Made by a program: the position numbers and the translations under genes. Below the pieces are notes generated by a model, which was given only the letters and a program-made list of their open reading frames with translations, did no database searches and was not told the DNA's origin. Positions 1,908 through 36,321 of a stretch of DNA of 37,005 nt are shown piece after piece. Numbering within the stretch: position 1 is the first letter of the stretch; every line of letters starts with the position of its first letter. This stretch comes from Clostridia bacterium (GTDB lineage: Bacteria > Bacillota > Clostridia > DUPQ01), in the NCBI GenBank assembly GCA_016929655.1, contig JAFGIJ010000090.1, forward strand, positions 1 to 37,005. The letters run 5' to 3'.

Positions 1908-4715
1908 TCAGAATCTCTCCAGCGTAATATCCCAGGAGCCGTCAGTTTCATCTGATATTTCTATGCCTATGGGAACAACAGCACGAAATTTTTTATAATT
2001 GCCAGTTTTACTCCAGTAAACATAAATCTTGCCATATGGAGTAGGTATACTGCCTTCACACCATTCAAGGTCTGTTTCGGGTATGGAAAGTGACATCTTA
2101 CTGAAACCCTGTTCAATAGGTACTAGCCCAAGAATATATTTAATGAAAACATAACCGGGTGCAGATGACCATGAATGACAGTAGCTTCTTGTCCTTGAAT
2201 TTTCATAGAACCCGGGAAACACTTCCCAGCATGTAGATGAGTCGTATCTCAGCATCATTCCCCACCTGTCCCTTATTTCATCAAGAATGCGGATGTCATA
2301 TCCGTTCCTGTGCAATATTTCAAACAGGTAAAACAGCATGAACGGTGACCCTGGTTCCAGCCACCCTTCCTGGCCTTGCAGCAACTTGCCCAGAACAATC
2401 TGTCTTCTGGCCTTGTTTCTCAGCAATCCATAAAGTTCCAGCATTACATGTGTCTGCATGCTTAATGTCTTTGCAAAACCCTCTTCCTTTGTCCATCCGT
2501 CGGCATAAGCCTGTTTGTCTTCAAGCCAAAGATGGTTTTCCAAATATTCAAGCAACTTTTCAGCCTTCCGGGTGCAATTTTGTACATCGTCATGGAAGCC
2601 AAGTTTCTGTGCCATCCTTGCACCAAATTCAAAGCAATGGGCCAACAGTCCCTGCTGCGCAGTCACCACACCACTGTTGCCTATATCCATTGGTGCCCAG
2701 TCGAGCATATTCCATGCCTTGATGTCAAAGGCACCTTCTTCAGAAATAAAGTTACTGTAATAGTCAAGGGTAATTCTGACTTCATCATATAAATCATTGT
2801 AAATACTTTCATCTCCTGTATAGAAGATGTACTGTTCAATTGAAATCATCCAGTTCATCGTCCAAATGGGAATCGCTGTCTCCCAATCGGTGGGCATCAG
2901 AGCCGGTAAAAGCTTTGTGTACTTTCTGCCAAGTGGCACCTGCATCAAACAATGGCGAAGCAAATCATATTCTCCGAAATAGAATGTACTAACAGCAGCA
3001 CTTACCTGTGCATCGCCACTCCAGAAAGCCTGTTCATAAGTCGGACTGTCGGCAAATGTATCTTCAGAACACATCAGATTTGTTCTTTTTGATATTTCAA
3101 AGATTTTATTAAGTTTCCAGTCACTGCAGCGAAAATTACCGTTCATGGATACAGGATAACTTCCCTGGTTTACTCTCAAACCCCTGATTTCGATTCTTTC
3201 CTTTTGGTCACGGAATGTAATCATCATGAAACGAAGTCCCATCCTTGTAAGGCTTGTATAATCCTGCCAGCCCTGGCTGCAAATATACCTGATGCCATTG
3301 TTTAGTCCGAAGGTAAAGTCTATGTAACCTTCGAACATATTCTCAAAACAATAGATATCCATGACCTGGCCACCAGGCGCATTAATTGTAAAGCCAATGT
3401 TGCCAACAAACATGTTGTTGAAGTCCAGGATTATTGAAGAATCGGTTCCTTTGGAAGGTGCTTCGATGACCGTTGTCAGGTTGTTTCCATTTAGAAGATT
3501 ATTGTGCTCTGCTTTTACAGGAATGTCACTGACTTTTTCCATATTCCTAGAAAGTGAATAAATGTATTCATCATGGAAGACATAGCCCTCATCCACCGTA
3601 TTAACGGGAAATCCACAATCAGCAAGATCCCTGACATCGGTGCTGTCAAATATACCTCTGTCAGATTCAGTGGCACTGGATGAACCGTCATAGTCCAAAA
3701 GTCCACCATATATATCACGAAAGCCATCAGTTTCATTGGGAATGAACTGGACTGGTCCCACGGTAAAGAATTCTTTGAACTCAACTTTACAGTCAAAATC
3801 GTATTCAATATGAACAAAAAGGTCATCAAATTTTGCAGAAAGTTCCATGATGAAGAATTGTTTTCCCTTTTTGAGGCTTACCTCCCTCCTTCTATCACCT
3901 TTGCCGATTTTATAAAGAACACCGTCTATTTTATAGTCACCATGCATGCCGTTCCACTTGTTTGTGGGGAACTCAATTGTTCCTTTACAATCAAACTCAG
4001 CTTCGATGCATGCACCGATATAGGCAGTCATGATTGTAGCATTTGCATCTCTTCGGCCCGGAAACAAAGCTTCCCTTGCATTTATAGAAACAACCCTGCC
4101 TTTTCTGTTGGTTTCAGAAATTGAAACAATATTTTCAGCCATGACTGTTTTTCGGTCAAGATATTTGACAGGTCTTTTTGTAAGTTCGCCCCAGTTGTCC
4201 AAAACTGATACCGCAGTCTTCCAGTCACTGTCATCAAAGCTGTTCTTCATCCAATCAAATGAAAAATCAGCAGCATTATAATGTTCCATGAATCCAAGAT
4301 TTACATTTCTTTTTACCGTCTTTGAAATCCACCCTTTGTCAAAAGTACATAAAACAGATGAGTCTGATACTGCAACAGATACACCACTTTCAGTTATTTC
4401 AAAGGAAAGCCCTCCCTTATTTGCTATCGTCTGATAAGTAGACCAACCATAATCCCAGACCCTCACAGCAAGCAAATTTCTTCCTGTCATTATATCTGCG
4501 CTTATATCATATTCATCATAATACCAGCGCTCTATGGTTGACCTGATGGGTCCCCGGCCTATTTCCCTGCCGTTTATATATAGAACATATCTTGTATCGG
4601 CACTTATTCTTATTACTGTTTCTTCACATGAATTTACTGTGAATTCTTTTCTAAAACAGGCGACTTTGTTTTCACAGTCACTGCCGCCCTGAACCCATAT
4701 CCAATTACCTTTCAT
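1908..4715 (-). CDS. Alpha-L-rhamnosidase-like (GH78-type, six-hairpin) protein
   Basis: 935 aa; ADSPTYEQAFWSGDAQ resembles the GH78 CP-x-RxE-x-GWTGDAQ region; N-terminal beta-sandwich with ADTRYVLYINGREIGRGP; C-terminal region typical of bacterial rhamnosidases. Confidence 0.8.
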   Translation of the reverse strand: MKGNWIWVQGGSDCENKVACFRKEFTVNSCEETVIRISADTRYVLYINGREIGRGPIRSTIERWYYDEYDISADIMTGRNLLAVRVWDYGWSTYQTIANKGGLSFEITESGVSVAVSDSSVLCTFDKGWISKTVKRNVNLGFMEHYNAADFSFDWMKNSFDDSDWKTAVSVLDNWGELTKRPVKYLDRKTVMAENIVSISETNRKGRVVSINAREALFPGRRDANATIMTAYIGACIEAEFDCKGTIEFPTNKWNGMHGDYKIDGVLYKIGKGDRRREVSLKKGKQFFIMELSAKFDDLFVHIEYDFDCKVEFKEFFTVGPVQFIPNETDGFRDIYGGLLDYDGSSSATESDRGIFDSTDVRDLADCGFPVNTVDEGYVFHDEYIYSLSRNMEKVSDIPVKAEHNNLLNGNNLTTVIEAPSKGTDSSIILDFNNMFVGNIGFTINAPGGQVMDIYCFENMFEGYIDFTFGLNNGIRYICSQGWQDYTSLTRMGLRFMMITFRDQKERIEIRGLRVNQGSYPVSMNGNFRCSDWKLNKIFEISKRTNLMCSEDTFADSPTYEQAFWSGDAQVSAAVSTFYFGEYDLLRHCLMQVPLGRKYTKLLPALMPTDWETAIPIWTMNWMISIEQYIFYTGDESIYNDLYDEVRITLDYYSNFISEEGAFDIKAWNMLDWAPMDIGNSGVVTAQQGLLAHCFEFGARMAQKLGFHDDVQNCTRKAEKLLEYLENHLWLEDKQAYADGWTKEEGFAKTLSMQTHVMLELYGLLRNKARRQIVLGKLLQGQEGWLEPGSPFMLFYLFEILHRNGYDIRILDEIRDRWGMMLRYDSSTCWEVFPGFYENSRTRSYCHSWSSAPGYVFIKYILGLVPIEQGFSKMSLSIPETDLEWCEGSIPTPYGKIYVYWSKTGNYKKFRAVVPIGIEISDETDGSWDITLERF

Positions 4716-4721
4716 ATCCGG

Positions 4722-6557
4722 TTATCCTTTCAAAGTACAGGTATATTTTGCTTTAAATAGAGTTTCAGAGCCTTTTCGCCTGACAATAACCCCAGGGCGT
4801 GTGGTGTTGAAATCCGTTGTATAGCTGTTCACCAAAAACACCTCTGTCCCTTTCATTCCTTCAAAATCAAGGGTGACTGTCTTGTCATTCATTTCAAAGT
4901 CAATGGACCAGTCAAATTCACCACTGAATTTCCGAACATCAAAAAGATGCTGGTATCCTTCACTGTCGCCCAGACTGCCAATTACCTCGGTTTCATAACT
5001 GCATTCAATCTTTCCTTTGCAGTAGAACAGCCATTCGATATTGTACTCTTCAACTCCCTTTACATGAAATTCATCATATATTGTGTTTTCCTCTATTCGA
5101 ATATCCCTTGTATAGTCACAGCATTCATAAACATTTTTACTTTTGGCTCTGATTCTGCTTTCATCAAAGTACTCCACTATCCCCTCCGGCCAGACTCCTT
5201 CTCCCACAGGCTCGTATTTTTGGTCCATCATGTCAAGAATAACCGTATTATGGGCTATGGTTTTACGCTGCCATTCCTGGAATATCCTTGTACTGTAACC
5301 ATTGCTGCATAGGTCGCAGGATACCAAATCTCCATAAAATGCCATTTCGATGGTCATAACATCCGGATGGGCATGACTTATGGTTTTTATGCCTGTCTTT
5401 AAAAAGACTTCCGTAATATTATTCTTCAGAATGGCATTGAAACTGTCCTCATTGTTTTGTGAACCGAATGACGGCAGCCCCATGTCGGGATAGCCCGGAT
5501 TGAAAAGCAGTCTTTCCGGTACCGATGCTTCGCCTTCCTTATAAAAGGTTCCCAGTATCTGTTTCAGATAATCGTTGTTCAGAATCTGAGCAGCATATTC
5601 TATCTGTCTTTTATATTTGTTAACATGTATTTCCGGCCATCCATCACCTGGATTCGGCAGAAATCCATTTGAAAACATATTTTCAACGGGATACATATAT
5701 AATCTTTCAAGATAATTGAAGAGTTCATCTGTTTCAGGTATGTACAGATTATGTTCTTTGGCCATATACATGAAATATGTAATGGGATCCGCACAATAAA
5801 AATGGTAATGGGGCGAATATTCAAACCACATTCCTTCCTTTGTAACTCCCCTTCTCATCTGGTCCAGCAGTCCGAATCTTGAATATACTGCATTGTCTAT
5901 GATTTTTCTATCATCAAAGAAAAGTCCAATCATTCCCTCAGCTGCCTTCATCCATGCAGGTATGTTATATATTTTATTGGAAAACTGGTCATACATTTCA
6001 GCCTGGGGAATGAATAGTTTGTCGTGCCAAGCATTGAGTTCTTCTTCTTTGAAACATTCCCTCATCATATCCATGCCCAATAAGCATTGTATGATATTGA
6101 CAGCATCCGAGAGATTTATGCCGGTTAATTTACCTTCAAATCTTTTTGCCGGTGACTCAGCTGTAAACGAATTATAATTTTCTGAAAAGAAATTCAGGGC
6201 TTTTTTTGCGAAATCTGGATATTTATTGTCCCTGTCAAGGCTATAAAGGATCCCTGAATTGTATATCGTTCCAAATGTCTGTCCTCTGTAAGTAGCAGTC
6301 CAGGCATTGTCTTTCTTTGATCCAGTATTTATTTTACCGCAAACCGTACATTTATGTTCATGAGGTGAATTTATGTCATATGCGAGTCTACCGGCACACT
6401 TGTCGCAATGGTAATTATGCCCCCATCCTGCAGTTCGCGATGCATCATCATGATAACTATCAATGAAGACAGTTGCGTCAGTCTTCATTTTCCTGTATAG
6501 CTCTTCTGCCCATTTGTAATTATTTATTTTTTCTCTTACCTGTTTCCAATCAACCAT
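4722..6557 (-). CDS. Heparinase II/III-like family protein (polysaccharide lyase-like)
   Basis: 611 aa; alpha-toroid followed by SHAHPDVMTIEMAFYGDLVSCDLCSNGYS... and a beta-sandwich C-terminus; also carries CDKC...CTVC Cys pairs near the N-terminus. Confidence 0.75.
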   Translation of the reverse strand: MVDWKQVREKINNYKWAEELYRKMKTDATVFIDSYHDDASRTAGWGHNYHCDKCAGRLAYDINSPHEHKCTVCGKINTGSKKDNAWTATYRGQTFGTIYNSGILYSLDRDNKYPDFAKKALNFFSENYNSFTAESPAKRFEGKLTGINLSDAVNIIQCLLGMDMMRECFKEEELNAWHDKLFIPQAEMYDQFSNKIYNIPAWMKAAEGMIGLFFDDRKIIDNAVYSRFGLLDQMRRGVTKEGMWFEYSPHYHFYCADPITYFMYMAKEHNLYIPETDELFNYLERLYMYPVENMFSNGFLPNPGDGWPEIHVNKYKRQIEYAAQILNNDYLKQILGTFYKEGEASVPERLLFNPGYPDMGLPSFGSQNNEDSFNAILKNNITEVFLKTGIKTISHAHPDVMTIEMAFYGDLVSCDLCSNGYSTRIFQEWQRKTIAHNTVILDMMDQKYEPVGEGVWPEGIVEYFDESRIRAKSKNVYECCDYTRDIRIEENTIYDEFHVKGVEEYNIEWLFYCKGKIECSYETEVIGSLGDSEGYQHLFDVRKFSGEFDWSIDFEMNDKTVTLDFEGMKGTEVFLVNSYTTDFNTTRPGVIVRRKGSETLFKAKYTCTLKG

Positions 6558-10480: not shown

Positions 10481-12475
10481 TCACTTTACTATTTCACCGC
10501 GTCTGTATGCACTCCATACATTCTCGAACCAGTTGTCCTCAGTAGGAATGGGTCTTATATCCTGCCATTCAACCTCAAATTCAGGTTCAGAACCCGTCTG
10601 ATTCATGCCTATAACACAGGCCTTCTTAAGAAGATCACCTTTGTCCAGGGTGAATCTGAAATCATCAGATAGTTTATCAAGGGGAAGAATGCCTTTGTCA
10701 TCGCTGACAAGATATGAACCCCTTGAACGTCCTCCGTTCCTGATGAACTCAATGATTGCCTTCAGATATACTATCTGGGTAATGAGAATATCCCTGTTTC
10801 TAAATGCTTCGACAAGTTCAAAGCTTCGTCCGGCAACGGTTGTTTTTTCAAAGTTTGCGAGCAGTAAAATGGATTCAGAAAGTGCTTTTTCTGCTTCAGG
10901 CAGTGATCTTATATGAGCACCGGCCCTAGTCATTCTGCCTTGCATTTCAAATCTGTTTTCAATGATGTTTGATTCGCCCTCGTTGGAAAGAATCGTCAGT
11001 GCCCTGTTCATATTGGCAGAAACAGTTGATTCGACAACCTTCGCGAATTCACTTGATTCCATCGGTTCTTCAGTATAATTTGCTGCAATGAACTGGGCCG
11101 CTCTAAATGAACCTACCTGAGTTGAGTTAAGGGCACTGCCTCCCGGTCTATATACTCCGAATGTTCCGTTGACTTCACCAACCGGGAACAGATGCTGTAT
11201 ATTGCTCTCCCACCACATGTTTCCCATGAGTCCGCCGTTGTTGTGCTGTGCACATACAGCGATTTCAAGATATTCCGTTGTTAGGTCAATACCGTTGTTG
11301 GAATAAAGTTCAATGGCTGGTTGGTTCATGTGGGCAAGCCTTTCAATGGGTTTTCCGAACAACGCATTTGAGTTTTTCAGGTAGCTGTAACTTTCTTTGC
11401 CCAGCATTGAGAAATCAAATTCACCATTCTTCTCACTGCAGGTTGGATTGCTCATGAAGTCCATGTAAACCCTTCTGCCTTTTATCTGGGTTTCATTGTA
11501 AACCAGGATATCAATAATTGAGGAACCGAAGTTCTCAATTTTTCTGGGATCAAAGGGCCATTGATAGCCTTTCAGGAAAATTGCATCAAGAAGCTTTCCT
11601 TTGTCATCAAAATATTCATCGAGAAATTCCTTTTCATCATTTCCATCCCTATCAGTGGAAATGTATCTGGGAATAACCTGCTGATAGGTGCCTGAAAGAT
11701 TCCATCTAAATTTAATTGATGCAATTCCATACTGGGATTCGGTTAGGTTGATTCCCTTTGCACCGGCTTCATAAGCCATGCCAGAACTTCCAAGATGATT
11801 TACCGGATAAACACTGGTCAGATACATACCTGCAGGTCCCCCTGCAGCATAAATGACATTTGTACAATTGAAAAGGGTAAACCCTTTGTTTGCTGAATCC
11901 TGTTTGGCAGTATCAATGGCCAGAAGACCTATGGCCTTTTCATCCTTGGTTAGAACAGCAATTACAACAAATCCATCGAAAATCCTGATACCTTTGTTGT
12001 TAATCTGGACTTCAAGCTTTTCCGTCATGAATTTGGACGTCAGCGGACCGGCTGATGTTGCCCTTTCCCTTGGATCATGGTCGGTCTTGTAACCTATATA
12101 CTCACCATATTTATTATGAGGGAACGGTACACCTATAGATGCAAGTTTATAGAATCCCCTGGCAGAGAGAGCTGCTTCAACAAGAGCTATATCCCCATGC
12201 ATACTTCCACCCTTGAAAAGAGTCTGTGCCATTTCAAATACAGAATCAGGAGTATTACCTGAAAGTGTCAGTTTGTAGTAGGTCTGCTTGTCGGAACCCG
12301 TATTCCTTGAAGTTCCCATCTTGATACCTTCGGTTATGATAGCAATATCCTTCTGCCCTAGGTCATAGAGGGAATCAGCTGCATTATATCCGGCAGCACC
12401 TGTTCCCAGTACTATTGTATTCATGCTGAATACATCATAATCAATCCCCTTGATGTTAACTGAATATTTATTCAT
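10481..12475 (-). CDS. FAD-dependent oxidoreductase, fumarate reductase/succinate dehydrogenase flavoprotein-like
   Basis: 664 aa; NTIVLGTGAAGYNAADSLYDLG dinucleotide fold, YAAGGPAGMYL, HNNGGLMGNMWWESNIQHLFPVGEVNGTFGVYRPGGSALNSTQVGSFRAAQ. Confidence 0.82.
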   Translation of the reverse strand: MNKYSVNIKGIDYDVFSMNTIVLGTGAAGYNAADSLYDLGQKDIAIITEGIKMGTSRNTGSDKQTYYKLTLSGNTPDSVFEMAQTLFKGGSMHGDIALVEAALSARGFYKLASIGVPFPHNKYGEYIGYKTDHDPRERATSAGPLTSKFMTEKLEVQINNKGIRIFDGFVVIAVLTKDEKAIGLLAIDTAKQDSANKGFTLFNCTNVIYAAGGPAGMYLTSVYPVNHLGSSGMAYEAGAKGINLTESQYGIASIKFRWNLSGTYQQVIPRYISTDRDGNDEKEFLDEYFDDKGKLLDAIFLKGYQWPFDPRKIENFGSSIIDILVYNETQIKGRRVYMDFMSNPTCSEKNGEFDFSMLGKESYSYLKNSNALFGKPIERLAHMNQPAIELYSNNGIDLTTEYLEIAVCAQHNNGGLMGNMWWESNIQHLFPVGEVNGTFGVYRPGGSALNSTQVGSFRAAQFIAANYTEEPMESSEFAKVVESTVSANMNRALTILSNEGESNIIENRFEMQGRMTRAGAHIRSLPEAEKALSESILLLANFEKTTVAGRSFELVEAFRNRDILITQIVYLKAIIEFIRNGGRSRGSYLVSDDKGILPLDKLSDDFRFTLDKGDLLKKACVIGMNQTGSEPEFEVEWQDIRPIPTEDNWFENVWSAYRRGEIVK

Positions 12476-12484
12476 ATTTCCCCC

Positions 12485-13261
12485 TTATAGTCTTTGTATA
12501 TGGAATCCACCGTCCACATTGACGACTTCGCCGGTGGAAAATGCAAATTTGCCTGAGCAAAAAGCAGACACTGCATTTGCAATATCCTCCGGATATCCCC
12601 ATCTCTTGATAGGTGTCAGGCCTTCTGCAATAAGTTTGTCATATTTGCCCTTTACAACTTCTGTCATTGGAGTAAGTATTATACCTGGACGTATTTCATA
12701 TACATTGATACCGAATTCAGCCAGTCTGTCCGCGAACAGTTTTGTGACCATGCTCACACCGGCCTTTGAGATACAGTATTCTCCCCTTGATGTTGAGGAA
12801 ACATAAGATGACATTGATGCAATATTTACTATTACAGGACTGTAATTCTCAACTTTCCCAACAAGCCCGGTCATTTTGTTGGCAACCAGCTGGGTCAGGA
12901 AAAATGTGCCTTTTAGGTTTATTCCTGTTACAAAATCAAAGCTTTCTTCAGTTGTTTCCAAAATATCCATTCTGACTTTAGGTGCAACACCTGCATTGTT
13001 TACCAGAACATCAATTCTGCCGAATTTTTCAAGGGTTGTTTCAACAACCTCAAGTCTGCTCTCAGCCTTGGTGATGTCGCCCCTTATATAGAGAACATCT
13101 GCACCTGTTTCTTCAACGGTTTTTATGTTATCAAGTACATCATCCTTTTTCAGGACATCCATTATTGCAATTGAATATCCATCCTTTGCCAACTGCAAGG
13201 CTATTCCGTTACCAATACCTCTTGCGGCACCTGTTACAAGTGCAACTTTCCTGCTGCTCAT
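12485..13261 (-). CDS. Short-chain dehydrogenase/reductase (SDR, 3-oxoacyl-ACP reductase-like)
   Basis: TGAARGIGNGIALQLA, NNAGVAP, YCISKAGVSM, NVDGG: classical SDR motifs; likely ATG at 13261. Confidence 0.9.
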   Translation of the reverse strand: MSSRKVALVTGAARGIGNGIALQLAKDGYSIAIMDVLKKDDVLDNIKTVEETGADVLYIRGDITKAESRLEVVETTLEKFGRIDVLVNNAGVAPKVRMDILETTEESFDFVTGINLKGTFFLTQLVANKMTGLVGKVENYSPVIVNIASMSSYVSSTSRGEYCISKAGVSMVTKLFADRLAEFGINVYEIRPGIILTPMTEVVKGKYDKLIAEGLTPIKRWGYPEDIANAVSAFCSGKFAFSTGEVVNVDGGFHIQRL

Positions 13262-13262
13262 A

Positions 13263-15893
13263 TTATTTCCCTCCAAATAAATCATCGATTATAGTTTCTG
13301 CGGCTTTTCTTCCTTCTCCTGCTGCCTGAACCACTGTTGTTCCACCGTTTACAATATCCCCACCTGCATATACTTTTTCCCTGGATGTCCTGAATCTACC
13401 ATCAACTTTTATTTTACCCCTGGTGAACTCAACTCCAACAAGACTTTTGACAAGCTCATCATCCACCATCTGTCCTGTTGCTTCAACACAGATATCTATT
13501 GGCAGCGTATACTCAGAATCAGGTATTATTATAGGTCTTGCCCTGCCTGAATCATCAGGCTCTCCCAGCATAGTATGTGAAATTCTAATGCCCTTGAGTT
13601 TCTCAGACCCTTCATAACCTACCGGTTGGCTGAGAATCATGAAATGAACCCCAAGGTCCAGGGCATGTCTGACTTCTTCATTCCATGCAGGCAGCTCCTT
13701 GAATGAACGCCTGTATATCAGATATACATTCCTAAGTCCTCTTTCCTTCAAAGATGTAACAGCATCCATTGCTGTATTACCGCCCCCTATTACTGCTGCA
13801 GTCATATTTTCACTGAGCTCTATACTGTCTGCTTTATTCTGGTAAAGGAATGTCATTGCATCAATGACACCCTTGGGTCTGCTACCCATCTCTATTGCAG
13901 ACGTCTTGCACATACCTGCTCCGATGAATACCACATCATAACCCATCGCTACAACTGCATCAAGATTCATGTCTGGTCCTATAGGTGTGTTATAATTTAT
14001 TTCAAAGAGTCCTGTATCCTCAAGGCCAAGGCTTTCAACTTCTTTCCTGAAAACTTCCTTTGGAAGTCTTTCAAATGGAATAACGGCTTCTGCTGTTCCA
14101 CCGGGATAATCTGCAGCCTCGAATACTGTCACAGAAACACCAGCTTCTATCAAAGTAACGGCACATGCAATTCCGGCACCGCCGAATCCAATGACAGCAG
14201 CCTTTTTTCCTGTCGGCTTGCCTGCTTTTATCCTGGTCCAGCCTTCTTCCCTTGCTTTTTTTGATATGAACTTCTGAATTTCACTGATCGGTACTGAATT
14301 TTTCCCCAGTATTCCCGCTGAACAGGTTCTTTCACACAGTACCTCAGATGGGCATGTATACGAGCAGGTTTCAGGAATCTTGTTTGATTCCACCATGATT
14401 TCATATGCACGCTTAATGTTGTCATTGTAGAATTCTCTTATGAATCCGGCAACATCAATCTCTGCAGGGCAATTATTGCTGCAGGAACCTCCCCAGCAGT
14501 TTTTACAGCTATCAGCCATTTCATGTATGTATTCCTTGCTGGTAAGCCTTCCCTGATAATAAATACCTGCATATGTATCTGAGTCCCTTATGACACAGCC
14601 GGAAACAACACCGTCCCTCATCATCTGCGTGCATGATGAGCAGGTAATGCAGACCTTGCCTGCCTTGAGTTTTCCATTTGTAAAGAAATCATTTGGGAAA
14701 TCAGGATAAGCTAAACCCATCCTCCCAAGACCTATTATTGAGCCTTTTCCTTCAGAAAGGACATAATCGCCCAAATTCATGGTAACCTGCCGCAGCCAGC
14801 TTGTCCCCGAAGTCACAAACGTCATGTCAGGAAAAGTTTCAGCTATTTCAGATGTCAGCCTGATGTTTCTTTCCAAAGTTTTGAGAGGATGCTCTTCAGG
14901 CAGGTCAAATCCCTGTATCGGGAAGTCATATGGTCTTTCATAATTTGGGTTGAAGTATGGATTCCCGATTGCAATATTAAGCATCTTGACACCTATGTCA
15001 CGCAATTCTCCAATAAGCCTCTTTGGTTCAGACAAATCAGGATTCAAGCTTCCATCTGTGCTCATACCCCATCCATATGGATATTTGTAACCATCTGCAA
15101 CGCTGAGCCTTGATGAAACAGTGATTCCCGGAACTTCATCCATGATACGCTTGATCGTAGTCCTAAGAAATCTGGTTCTGTTTTCAAAACTCCCACCATA
15201 TCTGCTGTTTTCTCTTGTAAACGCCGAAAGATTTTCGTGAATTAGATAACCATGGCATGCCTTGACATCAACTGCATCAAACCCGCACTCCTTTGCTAGA
15301 CTTGCTGCTTCAACGTATTTATCCTGAAGTTTGTCCATATACTCATCAGAAACCAAGGGATATTCTTCGGTAAGATTGTGTTTATATGCAAGCACCTTGG
15401 AATGATGCATTATCATGGGCTCAGCTTTCCCTGTAGGTTTGCTCTCACGCCCTGAATGAGTAAGCTGCAGAACAAGAAACGGATTTTGCTTTTCACCTTT
15501 TTCATTGAAAGAATTATCCCGTATGTCTCTTACGAACTTCTTGAATTTATCGATATTGCCTCTATGTATCCATAACTGACCTGGATTTGCTCTACCTTCA
15601 GGAACCACAGCCGTTGCTTCAAGCCATATGATGCCTGCTCCACCGGCAGCAAATCTTTTATATTTTCTATATGTTAGTTCTGATGGATTGCCCTCATTGT
15701 CACAATCACAGCCTTCCATCGGTTGAATGCAGAATCGGTTGGGAATAGTCCTGCCATCAATTTCAAGAGGTTTTCTGAAATTTTCCATGTTGATTTCTTC
15801 GTTGAAAGGTATGGATACCCCTTCTTTTTCAAGTGCTTCCCTGAATTCCCTGATGTCTCTTATTACAATCCGTGATTTATACTTTTTAATCAT
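13263..15893 (-). CDS. Fusion of an OYE-type NADH:flavin oxidoreductase with an Fe-S plus GltD-like FAD/NAD(P) module
   Basis: N-terminal FMN TIM barrel (NRFCIQPMEGCD, LQLTHSGRES, ACHGYLIHENLS); CITCSSCTQ...C cluster; second Cys-rich module SCKNCWGGSCSNNCPAEID...CSYTCPSEVLCERTC; GltD-like AAVIGFGGAGIACAVTL and AAVIGGGNTAMDAV; C-terminal YAGGDIVNGGTTVVQA. Confidence 0.85.
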   Translation of the reverse strand: MIKKYKSRIVIRDIREFREALEKEGVSIPFNEEINMENFRKPLEIDGRTIPNRFCIQPMEGCDCDNEGNPSELTYRKYKRFAAGGAGIIWLEATAVVPEGRANPGQLWIHRGNIDKFKKFVRDIRDNSFNEKGEKQNPFLVLQLTHSGRESKPTGKAEPMIMHHSKVLAYKHNLTEEYPLVSDEYMDKLQDKYVEAASLAKECGFDAVDVKACHGYLIHENLSAFTRENSRYGGSFENRTRFLRTTIKRIMDEVPGITVSSRLSVADGYKYPYGWGMSTDGSLNPDLSEPKRLIGELRDIGVKMLNIAIGNPYFNPNYERPYDFPIQGFDLPEEHPLKTLERNIRLTSEIAETFPDMTFVTSGTSWLRQVTMNLGDYVLSEGKGSIIGLGRMGLAYPDFPNDFFTNGKLKAGKVCITCSSCTQMMRDGVVSGCVIRDSDTYAGIYYQGRLTSKEYIHEMADSCKNCWGGSCSNNCPAEIDVAGFIREFYNDNIKRAYEIMVESNKIPETCSYTCPSEVLCERTCSAGILGKNSVPISEIQKFISKKAREEGWTRIKAGKPTGKKAAVIGFGGAGIACAVTLIEAGVSVTVFEAADYPGGTAEAVIPFERLPKEVFRKEVESLGLEDTGLFEINYNTPIGPDMNLDAVVAMGYDVVFIGAGMCKTSAIEMGSRPKGVIDAMTFLYQNKADSIELSENMTAAVIGGGNTAMDAVTSLKERGLRNVYLIYRRSFKELPAWNEEVRHALDLGVHFMILSQPVGYEGSEKLKGIRISHTMLGEPDDSGRARPIIIPDSEYTLPIDICVEATGQMVDDELVKSLVGVEFTRGKIKVDGRFRTSREKVYAGGDIVNGGTTVVQAAGEGRKAAETIIDDLFGGK

Positions 15894-15942
15894 GCCGGCT
15901 CTCCCGTCCTTCTGCATTAAATGCTTTGTGTTTCAACTATAT

Positions 15943-15971
15943 ATACTAAAATATCACACTGCTTATATCAA
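15943..15971 (-). promoter_or_regulatory. Candidate promoter of the OYE-SDR-flavoprotein operon
   Basis: Minus strand TTGATA (15966-15971), 17-nt spacer, TAGTAT (15943-15948), about 50 nt from the ATG at 15893. Confidence 0.35.
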
Positions 15972-16034
15972 CCCTAAATTACACTATGAATCCACTAATT
16001 TCAACTTCATATTGATTAGCAACACATTGTCTCC

Positions 16035-16137
16035 TAATAATTACGTCTGGGTAAAATATTTTACCCAGACGTAAATATTTTACCCAGACGTAAATATTTT
16101 CCCCAGACGTAAATATTTTCCCCAGACGTAATTATTA
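16035..16137. repeat. Palindromic tandem array: one inverted plus four direct copies of (A/C)CCCAGACGTAAATATTTT, period 19 bp
   Basis: Direct copies at 16063-16081, 16082-16100, 16101-16119 and 16120-16137 (last ends ACGTAATTATTA); inverted copy TAATAATTACGTCTGGGT at 16035-16052; perfect 34-bp palindrome TTACGTCTGGGTAAAATATTTTACCCAGACGTAA at 16041-16074. Confidence 0.95.
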
Positions 16138-16140
16138 GTG

Positions 16141-16173
16141 AAAAAAATGCACCGGGGTTGTCCGGTGCATTTT
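16141..16173 (-). terminator. Intrinsic terminator of the operon ending with the beta-lactamase/PQQ fusion gene
   Basis: 12-bp perfect stem AAAATGCACCGG-GGTTGT-CCGGTGCATTTT; minus-strand T7 run (AAAAAAA at 16141-16147 on +); 18 nt after the stop of the 16191..18737 CDS. Confidence 0.9.
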
Positions 16174-16190
16174 GGATGGTCATAGAATGG

Positions 16191-18737
16191 TCAGTTTATT
16201 CTGATTCCAAAGATTTTTTTTGCATAGGAGCCAACAACGGCTATATCATTGAATACAGCCGGAGTTGATTCTATGTTTGCTCCAAGGCTGACTTCACTGA
16301 TTATGGTTCCATTAAGAGGGTCAATCAGCCGCATGGTACCACTGAAGTTACAATGAAGTATATATGTCTTGCCGGAATCTGTATCTTTAATGGCTGTTGG
16401 ACTTGACCAGCTGTAGTTAGGCAGCACCAACGCCCAAATTTCAAGACCGGTGTCTTTATCAAGAGCAGCTATCCGTCCACCCATCTTGGTACCTGTCTTG
16501 GCAACATTTATTATGATTCTGTCATTGATATCATTGGTACCGACTACAGGTGTAGCAAGGAAACCGCCGTTTATATAGGAATCATACCAGCAATCATATG
16601 ATGTTTCCCAAACCAGTTCCCCGGTGAGTGCATTGAATTTTCTAACATAACTTTCCATCACTATATCTTCAGCTTGTTCCAACTCTAGCTGTGCTGCTTT
16701 TCCCCGAAGGTCAAATTCACTGGAAACATATATATATACTTTATTTCCGTCTTCTTCCAGGACAATAGATGCATCAGTATCATCTCCGAGGTCTGCAAGC
16801 CATACGGGCTTCAGAGTGTTGAGGTCCAGACATTGTAAAAGTCCGCCGTTGTCTGCAAAGAAAATATAATTCTTATATATTGCCGGTGAGTTTTCAATTC
16901 CCAGTCTTCCGTTAATTGGATTCTTGTACCTGTATTTGATTGTCTCCGGATTAACTGAAATGGTTCCGTTTGTTTTATCGTACTGCGTATTGAGTTTCAT
17001 TATGTATATCAGACCATTTTCTGCGCATTCGATATAGATGTCTTCTTCAATGTACAGCAATCCAGAGGAATCAAATGCATACCAACCTCTGTAAGCCGAG
17101 GAATCATAACCCGGAATTTCATATATAAGACTTTGGTCTATGAGACTGAACATCCTGTATTTTGGAAGCCCATAGACTTCGCCGTTATAGTCTACTCCCT
17201 GACCTGTATAAAAAATGGGATACCCTCTGGGATCAACTGTAACGCTGCCTTTTGTAGGGAATCCAATCTCAATGGGAGGTCTGGTCCATTCCCCTGTCTC
17301 AAGTTCACAGAAGTAGATGAATCCATCCATTGCTGCATATATGACTTCCTTCAGGGAACTTCCCTTGAATTGAGGAAAAACATTCATCAATGCCACAGTT
17401 TCCTGAGGCCACTCTATAATGGATGGTTGTCCTGTCCATCCTGTACCGGGCCAGTTATCTATGACTCCTACATCAAATGACCAGATAATCCCAAGCTCAC
17501 CCTTATCGATATCAACTGTTCCGTATGCTCCGCCGTTCCTGTAATTGTTCCCCCTGAATGTAAGAACCCCTTTGGCATCCTGATAATCATCAGGGTCTCC
17601 GAAAGAAATCAATTCATTGAAATCATAACCATTGGGATTGACAGTATCATATTCAAATGAAAATGCTTCAGGCCTGGCTTCAGTTACAGGGTTCATGACA
17701 CTCTCATATTCTTCACCTTCCATGAACCTGTATATCATCAGTGAAGTCTGTGCCAGTACTTCAAATGCTTCCAGGTTTTCATTTGTCTGCTCGGACATCA
17801 ATGAAACTATATATGGATTATCGGCATAGACAATTCCTATATCATTATAGGCATTTTCATTTATATAATTTCCGATTTTATGAGCAACAGGAACTCCGGC
17901 AGGAAGATAGCGGTTTATTCTGTCATTGAAAACAGTATTTTCAAGATAATTCACCATGATTCCATAAAGCCCGGGATTCTCAATGTTCCTGTCATACAGT
18001 TCTTTTGCAAAGACAGCCATATCTGCAGGACAGGACCGATGCCGCAGACCATAATTTATTGTTGCTCCCAGATCCATCATATAGTCAAGTATATTGTCCC
18101 TGCCACAGAGTCTTATAATCATATTTATTGCACAATTATCACTGTATACAAGAGAATACTCAACAAGTTGTGCAACTGTATATTTATCACCATAATCTCC
18201 CTTAATGATCAGCCCGGTGCCATACTCAAGGTCCTGTTCAAGATATTCCATTTCGATATCAAAACTCAATGCACCCTCTGCTATCTTTTTAAAGAGATAC
18301 AGGTTGATTGGCAGTTTGGATGTACTCGCAGCGATATATTGGTCATATGAAGCAATATTCATTTGATTTCCTGTAGAAATATCCAAGAACGTCAAACCAT
18401 ATCTGCCATCAAATTGACTGAAGTATCGTTCTATATATTCCTCCAGGACATCAAGCTTTTCAATATCTTCTGCAGGATTGTAACCCGGCAAAGGAGTCGC
18501 TGATGGAGTGGGAGTTGGATTGGATGTTACAACAGGTGTTGGTACAGGAGTTGAGGTTTCATCAGGGACTTTCGTCGGTTCTGCAGTCCCTGTAGGCATT
18601 CCTGAAGGAGCCGGAGTTTTGCTGGCTTCTTCGATTATTTCCTCAAGTCCTTCAAATAATGAACATCCGGTCATGAAAACCAGTGTCGCAATTACCACAG
18701 CGATAAGTGAATTAATAATTTTTCTTTTGTGTGTCAT
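16191..18737 (-). CDS. Lipoprotein fusing a class A beta-lactamase-like serine hydrolase domain to a PQQ/WD-like beta-propeller
   Basis: 848 aa; lipobox FMTGCS; Thr/Pro linker; serine hydrolase motifs STSK (SxxK), YSDN (SDN) and HKIG (KTG-like); then repeated blades such as GLLQCLDLNTLKPVWLADLGDD, KFNALTGELVWETSYD, AALDKDTGLEIWALVLPNYSWSSPTAI and LIDPLNGTIISEVSLGANIESTPAVFNDIAVVGS. Confidence 0.8.
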   Translation of the reverse strand: MTHKRKIINSLIAVVIATLVFMTGCSLFEGLEEIIEEASKTPAPSGMPTGTAEPTKVPDETSTPVPTPVVTSNPTPTPSATPLPGYNPAEDIEKLDVLEEYIERYFSQFDGRYGLTFLDISTGNQMNIASYDQYIAASTSKLPINLYLFKKIAEGALSFDIEMEYLEQDLEYGTGLIIKGDYGDKYTVAQLVEYSLVYSDNCAINMIIRLCGRDNILDYMMDLGATINYGLRHRSCPADMAVFAKELYDRNIENPGLYGIMVNYLENTVFNDRINRYLPAGVPVAHKIGNYINENAYNDIGIVYADNPYIVSLMSEQTNENLEAFEVLAQTSLMIYRFMEGEEYESVMNPVTEARPEAFSFEYDTVNPNGYDFNELISFGDPDDYQDAKGVLTFRGNNYRNGGAYGTVDIDKGELGIIWSFDVGVIDNWPGTGWTGQPSIIEWPQETVALMNVFPQFKGSSLKEVIYAAMDGFIYFCELETGEWTRPPIEIGFPTKGSVTVDPRGYPIFYTGQGVDYNGEVYGLPKYRMFSLIDQSLIYEIPGYDSSAYRGWYAFDSSGLLYIEEDIYIECAENGLIYIMKLNTQYDKTNGTISVNPETIKYRYKNPINGRLGIENSPAIYKNYIFFADNGGLLQCLDLNTLKPVWLADLGDDTDASIVLEEDGNKVYIYVSSEFDLRGKAAQLELEQAEDIVMESYVRKFNALTGELVWETSYDCWYDSYINGGFLATPVVGTNDINDRIIINVAKTGTKMGGRIAALDKDTGLEIWALVLPNYSWSSPTAIKDTDSGKTYILHCNFSGTMRLIDPLNGTIISEVSLGANIESTPAVFNDIAVVGSYAKKIFGIRIN

Positions 18738-36104: not shown

Positions 36105-36315
36105 ACAAAAAACCGTCCCCTACATGGGACGGAAATATCCGCGGTGCCACCCAATTTAATCAATGATTCCCTCAAACATGATAACCGTCTGTACGGCCGG
36201 TCTTTTCAACCGGATTCTCCGGGAATGGATTCACATGCCATGTGTCGACGGTTTTCACCAAACACCGCCTCTCTTTGCACACCATGTCAGGTTACTTTTC
36301 CCCCTCATGGAATTG
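36105..36315 (-). ncRNA. T-box leader controlling serS (serine specific)
   Basis: T-box GGGTGGCACCGCGG at 36139-36152 (minus); terminator CCGTCCC-ATGTAG-GGGACGG + T6 at 36107-36132; specifier loop context GUGAA-UCC-A gives a Ser codon at 36227-36229. Confidence 0.95.
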
Positions 36316-36321
36316 AAATAA

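Follow-up and report, generated by a model that had tools for sequence, protein, structure and literature searches.

Genomic context of the array

The window analysed here, by which we mean the whole stretch of 37,005 nucleotides, belongs to the draft genome of an uncultured Clostridia bacterium (2.23 Mb, 229 contigs, 89% complete). In the window, an intergenic block of 103 bp lies between the gene of a beta-lactamase-like/beta-propeller protein with its intrinsic terminator and an operon encoding an OYE-family FMN oxidoreductase, an SDR and an FAD protein (Table 1). The closest named relatives of the OYE gene are found in Clostridia MAGs, at 69-77% protein identity. The terminator had been described from the letters alone as a conventional structure distinct from the block, which is borne out, its T-tract ending 3 bp away. 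On the other side, promoter-like hexamers of the OYE operon lie 63 bp past the array; as a consensus match alone they are weak, and their positions are conserved when aligned with one of two congeners (L132), in which the array is lacking. The sequence of that congener holds what seems to be the end of the same beta-propeller gene, a terminator-like inverted repeat, the alignable promoter and the OYE gene, with no array between them, and in the other congener (L131) the interval is occupied by two extra genes. Most simply, this lineage would have acquired the array between a terminator and a promoter that were already there.

An Rfam search of the window gave no match above the gathering threshold for the array and found a T-box leader alone (minus strand, 36122-36317, RF00230, 112 bits). 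Elsewhere in the window, a weak second tandem repeat (4696-4732, 17 bp x 2.1) overlaps the ends of the minus-strand genes at 1908-4715 and 4722-6557.

Table 1. Coordinates of the features of the locus and of related elements elsewhere in the host genome.
Feature	Position	Strand	Remarks
FAD protein	10481-12475		
SDR	12485-13285		
OYE-family FMN oxidoreductase with FeS/flavoprotein half	13263-15917	-	
Promoter-like TTGATA-17-TAGTAT of the OYE operon	15943..15971	-	
Left end module TAATAATT	16035..16042		CC precedes at 16033-16034, as in most copies
Unit 1, inverted, ACGTCTGGGTA	16043..16053	-	TACC-CAG-ACGT reversed
Palindromic 8-bp linker AAATATTT	16054..16061; again 16073-16080, 16092-16099, 16111-16118		
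Unit 2, direct, TACCCAGACGT	16062..16072	+	
Unit 3, direct, TACCCAGACGT	16081..16091	+	
Unit 4, direct, TCCCCAGACGT	16100..16110	+	
Unit 5, direct, TCCCCAGACGT	16119..16129	+	
Right end module AATTATTA	16130..16137		Left end inverted
Perfect 34-bp palindrome	16041..16074		Units 1 and 2 around the linker
Intrinsic terminator of the upstream gene 16191-18737	16141..16173	-	TGCACCGG..CCGGTGCA then TTTTTTT
Beta-lactamase-like/beta-propeller protein	16191-18737	-	
Family B repeat copies	L305 1-85; L307 3697-3923; L313 1-157; L315 2886-2982; L327 2949-3170		
Y1 transposase gene, RAYT superfamily	C149 (L329):3228-4004	-	PF01797 above cut-off

Anatomy of the block

The sequence-only reading had described the block (16035-16137) as a 19-bp array of one inverted and four direct units, and this description is correct to the base; the perfect 34-bp palindrome and the agreement of the outer 18-mers at 17 of 18 positions were likewise reproduced when the sequence was read again. 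TRF assigns the block a period of 19 bp, 4.4 copies and a match of 96%. The chance expectation of such a palindrome in 37 kb of the window's composition is about 4e-6, and the block folded as single-stranded DNA is 10-11 SD more stable than its shuffles. A promoter scan within the array scored no better than shuffles. The palindrome was also considered as a plus-strand terminator, since the scan scores its hairpin as terminator-like, but a real T-tract is absent and this candidate was rejected.

A modular repeat family in the host genome

Among the checks named in the sequence-only reading was a search of the host genome, in which a single occurrence of the block would have spoken against a functional operator or a mobile element. 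The block proved to be repeated: as a query against its own genome it gives 86 matches. Sequence searches of this genome, on which the census is based, reveal about 35 related intergenic loci with about 125 units, referred to here as family A. There are 40 occurrences of the motif CCCAGACGTAA by itself and 0 of its reversed control; the CAGACGTAAATATTT core has 76 matches; and the pattern AAATATTN12AAATATT has 52+56 exact matches, with 0 for reversed controls and 0 in both congeners. A covariance model built on the two-unit palindromes recovered all of these again in the host genome, and a diverged 13-copy array (C129:5559-5819), also used as a query, is a further member. In total, 112 units were parsed in 34 loci, two of these parses being spurious and a few units being missed, and about 13 more come from the C129 array. 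With six contigs breaking off within arrays and a draft that is 89% complete, all counts and array lengths are lower bounds. Such contig ends are typical of repeats that break short-read assembly, and family A arrays explain some of the fragmentation of the draft. The arrays at C50 and C139 have overlapping terminal units and may represent opposite ends of a single array.

The elements follow a common grammar, in which an end (CC)TAATAWTT is followed by 11-bp units joined by linkers AAATATTT and closed by the inverted end AAWTATTA(GG). The TAATAATT-type left end is common to most of the 34 parsed copies. Units mostly have the form NNNN-CAG-ACGT and may stand in either orientation, the linker is exact in 71 of 75 cases genome-wide, and CAGACGT-AAATATTT is the most conserved portion of the family. 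Because the linker is its own reverse complement, the 19-bp register (11 + 8) is kept whether neighbouring units are direct or inverted. About half of the elements (17) are perfect two-unit palindromes of about 48-50 bp, exemplified by CCTAATAATT-ACGACAGACGT-AAATATTT-ACGTCTGTCGT-AATTATTAGG, and the rest are arrays of 3-13 units. Terminal inverted repeats TAATAWTTACGWC are present at both ends of the two-unit elements and of several arrays.

Genomic position of the copies

All 34 mapped copies are intergenic. Where both neighbouring genes are known (28 copies), these are co-directional at 20, divergent at 5 and convergent at 3. The neighbours are functionally mixed; those downstream include genes for an esterase, alanine dehydrogenase, GH2, tyrosyl-tRNA synthetase, an AcrB-like pump, a copper ATPase, MatE, PdxA, SecDF, SMC and homoserine dehydrogenase, among others. 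A transposase gene was not found among the neighbours scanned.

At 18 of the 34 loci, the element starts 2-14 bp past the T-tract of an intrinsic terminator that faces it. Against uniform placement in free spacer this bias is strong (KS p = 1e-9), and it persists at p = 0.009 (12 loci) when 60 bp are reserved for promoter and leader. It may reflect target choice or survival, two causes that the data do not separate. Nothing specific on terminator-targeting repeats was found in the literature searched. At L004 (C105), the core of the repeat unit, CAGACGT/ACGTCTG, is also present in the stem of the terminator to the right of the array, a match that may be due to chance, to gene conversion or to an origin of the repeat at this site.

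No target-site duplication of more than 2 bp was found at family A copies, the sole perfect direct flank match of at least 5 bp being one of 7 bp at L008, where the flanks are A/T runs; a duplication of the palindromic TA may nevertheless have occurred. In tandem contexts, the majority unit orientation relative to transcription is distributed 9 to 2 (p ~0.07), which is below what would support a claim. Two copies intrude closely on their neighbours: at the right end of C89 (L002) the upstream gene appears to take its stop codon from the TAA of the element end, and at the left end of C10 (L007) the array reaches the ribosome-binding site of the next gene, with no space for a separate promoter.

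Distribution beyond the host genome

Outside this genome the family was not encountered in the relatives and collections searched. The CAGACGTAAATATTT core is absent from 59 relatives, comprising the two congeners, eight other members of the taxonomic family and 49 further Clostridia, bar one isolated chance match, and the covariance model found no match in the ten other genomes of that taxonomic family. The palindrome is absent from GTDB contigs (the host genome left out) and from IMG/VR, and the 103-bp block is absent from plasmids and phages bar one chance match; altogether, the viral contigs, plasmids and phages searched yielded no family A member. The one phage match covers 41 bp of a microvirus gene (E = 8e-3) and was attributed to chance.

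Mirrored arms and probable array growth

The arms of the palindromes covary at 8 pairs, with 22 double-changed cells and 0 one-sided changes. The covariation score is reached by 0 of 500 shuffles and also exceeds that of every slid register. Each variant of the two-unit elements (ACAC, TAGA, CAGA, ACCC, GCGT and others) recurs in mirror image on the opposite arm. With G-U-type intermediates lacking, this pattern suggests copying or correction at the DNA level, or the dispersal of palindromes that were already complete, rather than selection acting on an RNA.

Within arrays, adjacent units tend to be alike, and at C191 two unit types alternate to form a 38-bp higher-order repeat; both observations agree with the prediction of unit duplication. 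The arrays C127 and C133 have different flanks and share identical first four units inward from the element boundary, so that multi-unit arrays, besides single units, appear to have been copied between sites.

Other repeats, transposases and a group II intron

Two further intergenic tandem families, B and C, were found in 542 kb of host DNA sampled. Family B (34 bp around ACCCGAGGGGT) has palindromic linkers of the CTCGATTTTCGAG type and is found at contig ends too; one of its copies adjoins a terminator. Family C is built of 33 bp around AACCAATCATCCCAAGGATGATTGGTT (CCAATCATCC..GGATGATTGG) with an 8-bp linker and forms nine clusters in the sampled 542 kb.

The host genome holds two Y1_Tnp genes. 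The one at C149 matches the NCBIfam model REP_Tyr_transpos at E = 2e-12 but does not reach the cut-off of that model, and is flanked on both sides by family C palindromes (3141-3255 and 4122-4260). In published REPtrons and TIRtrons, a Y1 gene stands between copies of its own repeat family, which often form dimers or clusters (PMC3733652, PMC6006769, PMC3116915), and the RAYT/TIRYT-like C149 gene with family C is such a REPtron/TIRtron in an uncultured Clostridia bacterium. A contig end truncates the other Y1 gene (C78), whose flanks are therefore only partly readable. No family A copy lies in the readable flanks of the two genes, those of C78 being incomplete, and no longer element or parent IS with family A ends was found in the assembly, from which about 11% of the genome is missing. 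In the congener G001, palindromes of 39-41 bp occur near Y1 genes (L228 1349-1389, L233 1031-1069); they have a CCTTGGG core in common and differ in their stems, which suggests co-diversifying repeat/transposase pairs in the genus.

A group II intron with a reverse transcriptase and intron RNA domains is present at C49:13518-14147 (L268), upstream of a pyrG-like gene, its 5' end lying near a contig end, where the 5' exon is lost; the intron is absent from the congeners G001 and G002. PF00589 genes number one in the host genome, no more than in the congeners.

Comparison with known repeat systems

Like REP elements, family A occurs as palindromes between genes, arranged as inverted doublets and repeated many times within one genome. 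In common with REP/BIME/REPIN systems of RAYT/TnpA-REP (PMC3116915, PMC3733652, PMC6006769), it consists of short intergenic palindromic units whose compact form is the inverted doublet, with tandem clusters, mixed orientation, species specificity, several families per genome and no visible target duplication. In contrast to REPs of the GTAG class, none of the parsed units or ends carries a GTAG/GTGG tag, and perfect symmetric palindromes of about 50 bp take the place of imperfect 20-40-bp hairpins. Furthermore, the unit is too short to fold alone, the 8-bp palindromic linker and 19-bp register are foreign to REPs, and linkage to a RAYT was not found.

Other systems are similar in part. TIR repeats of TIRtrons/TIRYT (PMC3733652; subclass 2.1, PMC6006769) are also moderately abundant, in some cases self-complementary and arranged as dimers or clusters, and Y1 genes exist in the genus, one of them flanked by family C here; however, the GGGGWSAS motif is not seen in family A, and no assembled Y1 gene has family A in its readable flanks. 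Pneumococcal BOX (boxA-boxBn-boxC), RUP and SPRITE elements (PMC3049150) are likewise modular and intergenic, with distinct ends and variable internal tandem modules, and BOX-type elements are enriched downstream of genes and regarded as parasitic (PMC3049150). BOX modules are nevertheless larger and accompanied by target duplications, and, compared by description, share no evident sequence or length with family A (PMC3049150), whose ends and internal units, unlike those of BOX, obey one 19-bp grammar. CGTC-tagged REPs (PMC3733652) resemble family A in the ACGTC motif of the units, the head-to-head dimers and the lack of a known dedicated transposase; their CGTC tag is unpaired beside an 8-9-bp stem, a 4-5-base loop and a CCA tail, whereas in family A the motif lies inside a long stem. 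By analogy, family A would work like REP/BIME, BOX and TIR repeats. It is filed neither as a GTAG REP, since the tag is absent and a RAYT is not linked, nor as the classical MITE of a DDE IS, for which terminal inverted repeats are present but neither a target duplication nor a parent IS was found.

The core sites of tyrosine recombinases, such as cer and dif, have inverted arms around a 6-8-bp spacer. Two-unit family A elements (11 bp - 8 bp - 11 bp) have the same inverted arms, but unlike cer/dif the family comprises about 35 dispersed copies and direct arrays devoid of inverted arms. An Xer/dif-like site was set aside, as its geometry fits the two-unit form only.

Origin of the array and alternative explanations

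Altogether, the block is probably one copy of a species-private, non-coding, interspersed family of modular repeats of the REP/BIME/BOX type, which spreads as a unit and grows at its linkers. At its smallest, an element has two 11-bp units in perfect inverted arrangement about AAATATTT, bounded by the ends CC-TAATAATT...AATTATTA-GG; longer elements string these units together in arrays that strictly keep the 19-bp register. Elements would spread to new intergenic sites complete with their defined ends, presumably by transposition, as the dispersal, common ends and position of the copies suggest, with either a preference for sites behind intrinsic terminators or best survival there. Replication slippage or template switching, to which the observed pattern points, would add, remove or flip units with the register unbroken, because the linker is itself palindromic, and would give rise to arrays, mixed orientations and self-correcting palindromes. 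The spreading enzyme may act in trans, unlinked to any copy; the best guess would be a single-strand Y1/HUH transposase of the RAYT/TIRYT class, because target duplication is not seen and another repeat family flanks such a gene here. Effects on host genes would be incidental. Against the spread of family A stand the lack of a transposase gene among the scanned neighbours and of a clean footprint, the intergenic DNA of the congeners being too diverged for insertion boundaries at base level; growth in situ combined with recombination between loci may still have played a part.

Two proposals of the sequence-only reading, a miniature palindromic mobile element and a replication-slippage hotspot, fit the evidence: the copies are scattered in one species only and have their ends in common, arrays in different flanks start identically, unit number and orientation vary in strict 19-bp register, and in a congener the orthologous locus is free of the array. 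Its third proposal, an iterated operator for the OYE-SDR-flavoprotein operon, is unsupported in view of the occurrence of the repeat at about 35 loci among functionally unrelated genes and of a congener in which promoter and operon exist and the array does not; as a whole, that interpretation is partly supported.

In its general form, the operator explanation holds that a dimeric DNA-binding protein occupies CAGACGTAAATATTT half-sites and controls downstream genes, the OYE operon included. The conservation of CAGACGT-AAATATTT above the rest of the element, dyads CAGACGTAAATATTTACGTCTG that would suit a dimer, and the many copies upstream of promoters, here 63 bp before a -35-like hexamer, speak for such a protein. 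We nevertheless consider it quite unlikely, as the downstream genes have no common function, the copies hug the terminator and not the promoter, three of them lie between convergent genes, and family A is wholly missing from two congeners that keep operon and promoter. That same proximity to terminators lends some weight to selected insulators of transcription or topology, cruciform blocks that would back up termination, stop read-through or absorb supercoils, a type of role previously proposed for the BIMEs of E. coli. The very stable hairpins and the compensatory changes in the palindromes fit this role as well. It remains unlikely, given that several direct arrays consist of units all facing the same way, so that hairpin formation is not common to all copies; that one-sided pair changes of the G-U type, which RNA selection would allow, are absent; that only a few palindromes run into T-runs, most of them not doing so; and that the element is private to one species while the same terminator stands without it in a congener.

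Local processes or a different vehicle have also to be weighed. The likeness of neighbouring units and the two-unit higher-order repeat of C191 are what would be expected if a chance palindrome had expanded in situ by slippage and moved between loci by homologous recombination only, but slippage alone does not explain why about 35 unrelated intergenic sites have ends and linker in common, and flanks are not shared between copies, which makes this history distinctly improbable. Group IIC introns target sequences behind terminators, and family A might accordingly be seen as a passenger of group II intron retromobility, with which it would have in common the preference for terminator-distal sites and the contrast between this genome, with its C49 intron reverse transcriptase, and G001 and G002, which are without it. 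No sequence links the intron ends to the repeat, however, and with the 5' exon lost the class and target of the intron are unreadable, and we regard this as a most improbable origin.

A more far-reaching version of the preferred account, that of interspersed repeats spreading as units, would see in family A a new class of self-amplifying intergenic DNA, composed of an 11-bp unit and an 8-bp palindromic linker, inserted in trans immediately behind intrinsic terminators without target duplication and evolving by unit flipping at the linker; families A, B and C, unrelated in sequence, would then coexist in one Clostridia lineage, served by Y1/HUH transposases of the TIRYT branch. This we put forward as a rather doubtful extension.

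Significance

In Proteobacteria and streptococci, short interspersed repeats have been studied thoroughly. A survey of tagged REPs names no Clostridia (PMC3733652). Family A is of more interest than an isolated tandem repeat and of less than a new regulatory system; it is young and private to one species, and its units, linker, ends and orientation rules can be read directly. It thereby makes testable how such repeats can drift and yet stay perfectly symmetric, and whether they are spread by a Y1 transposase acting in trans.
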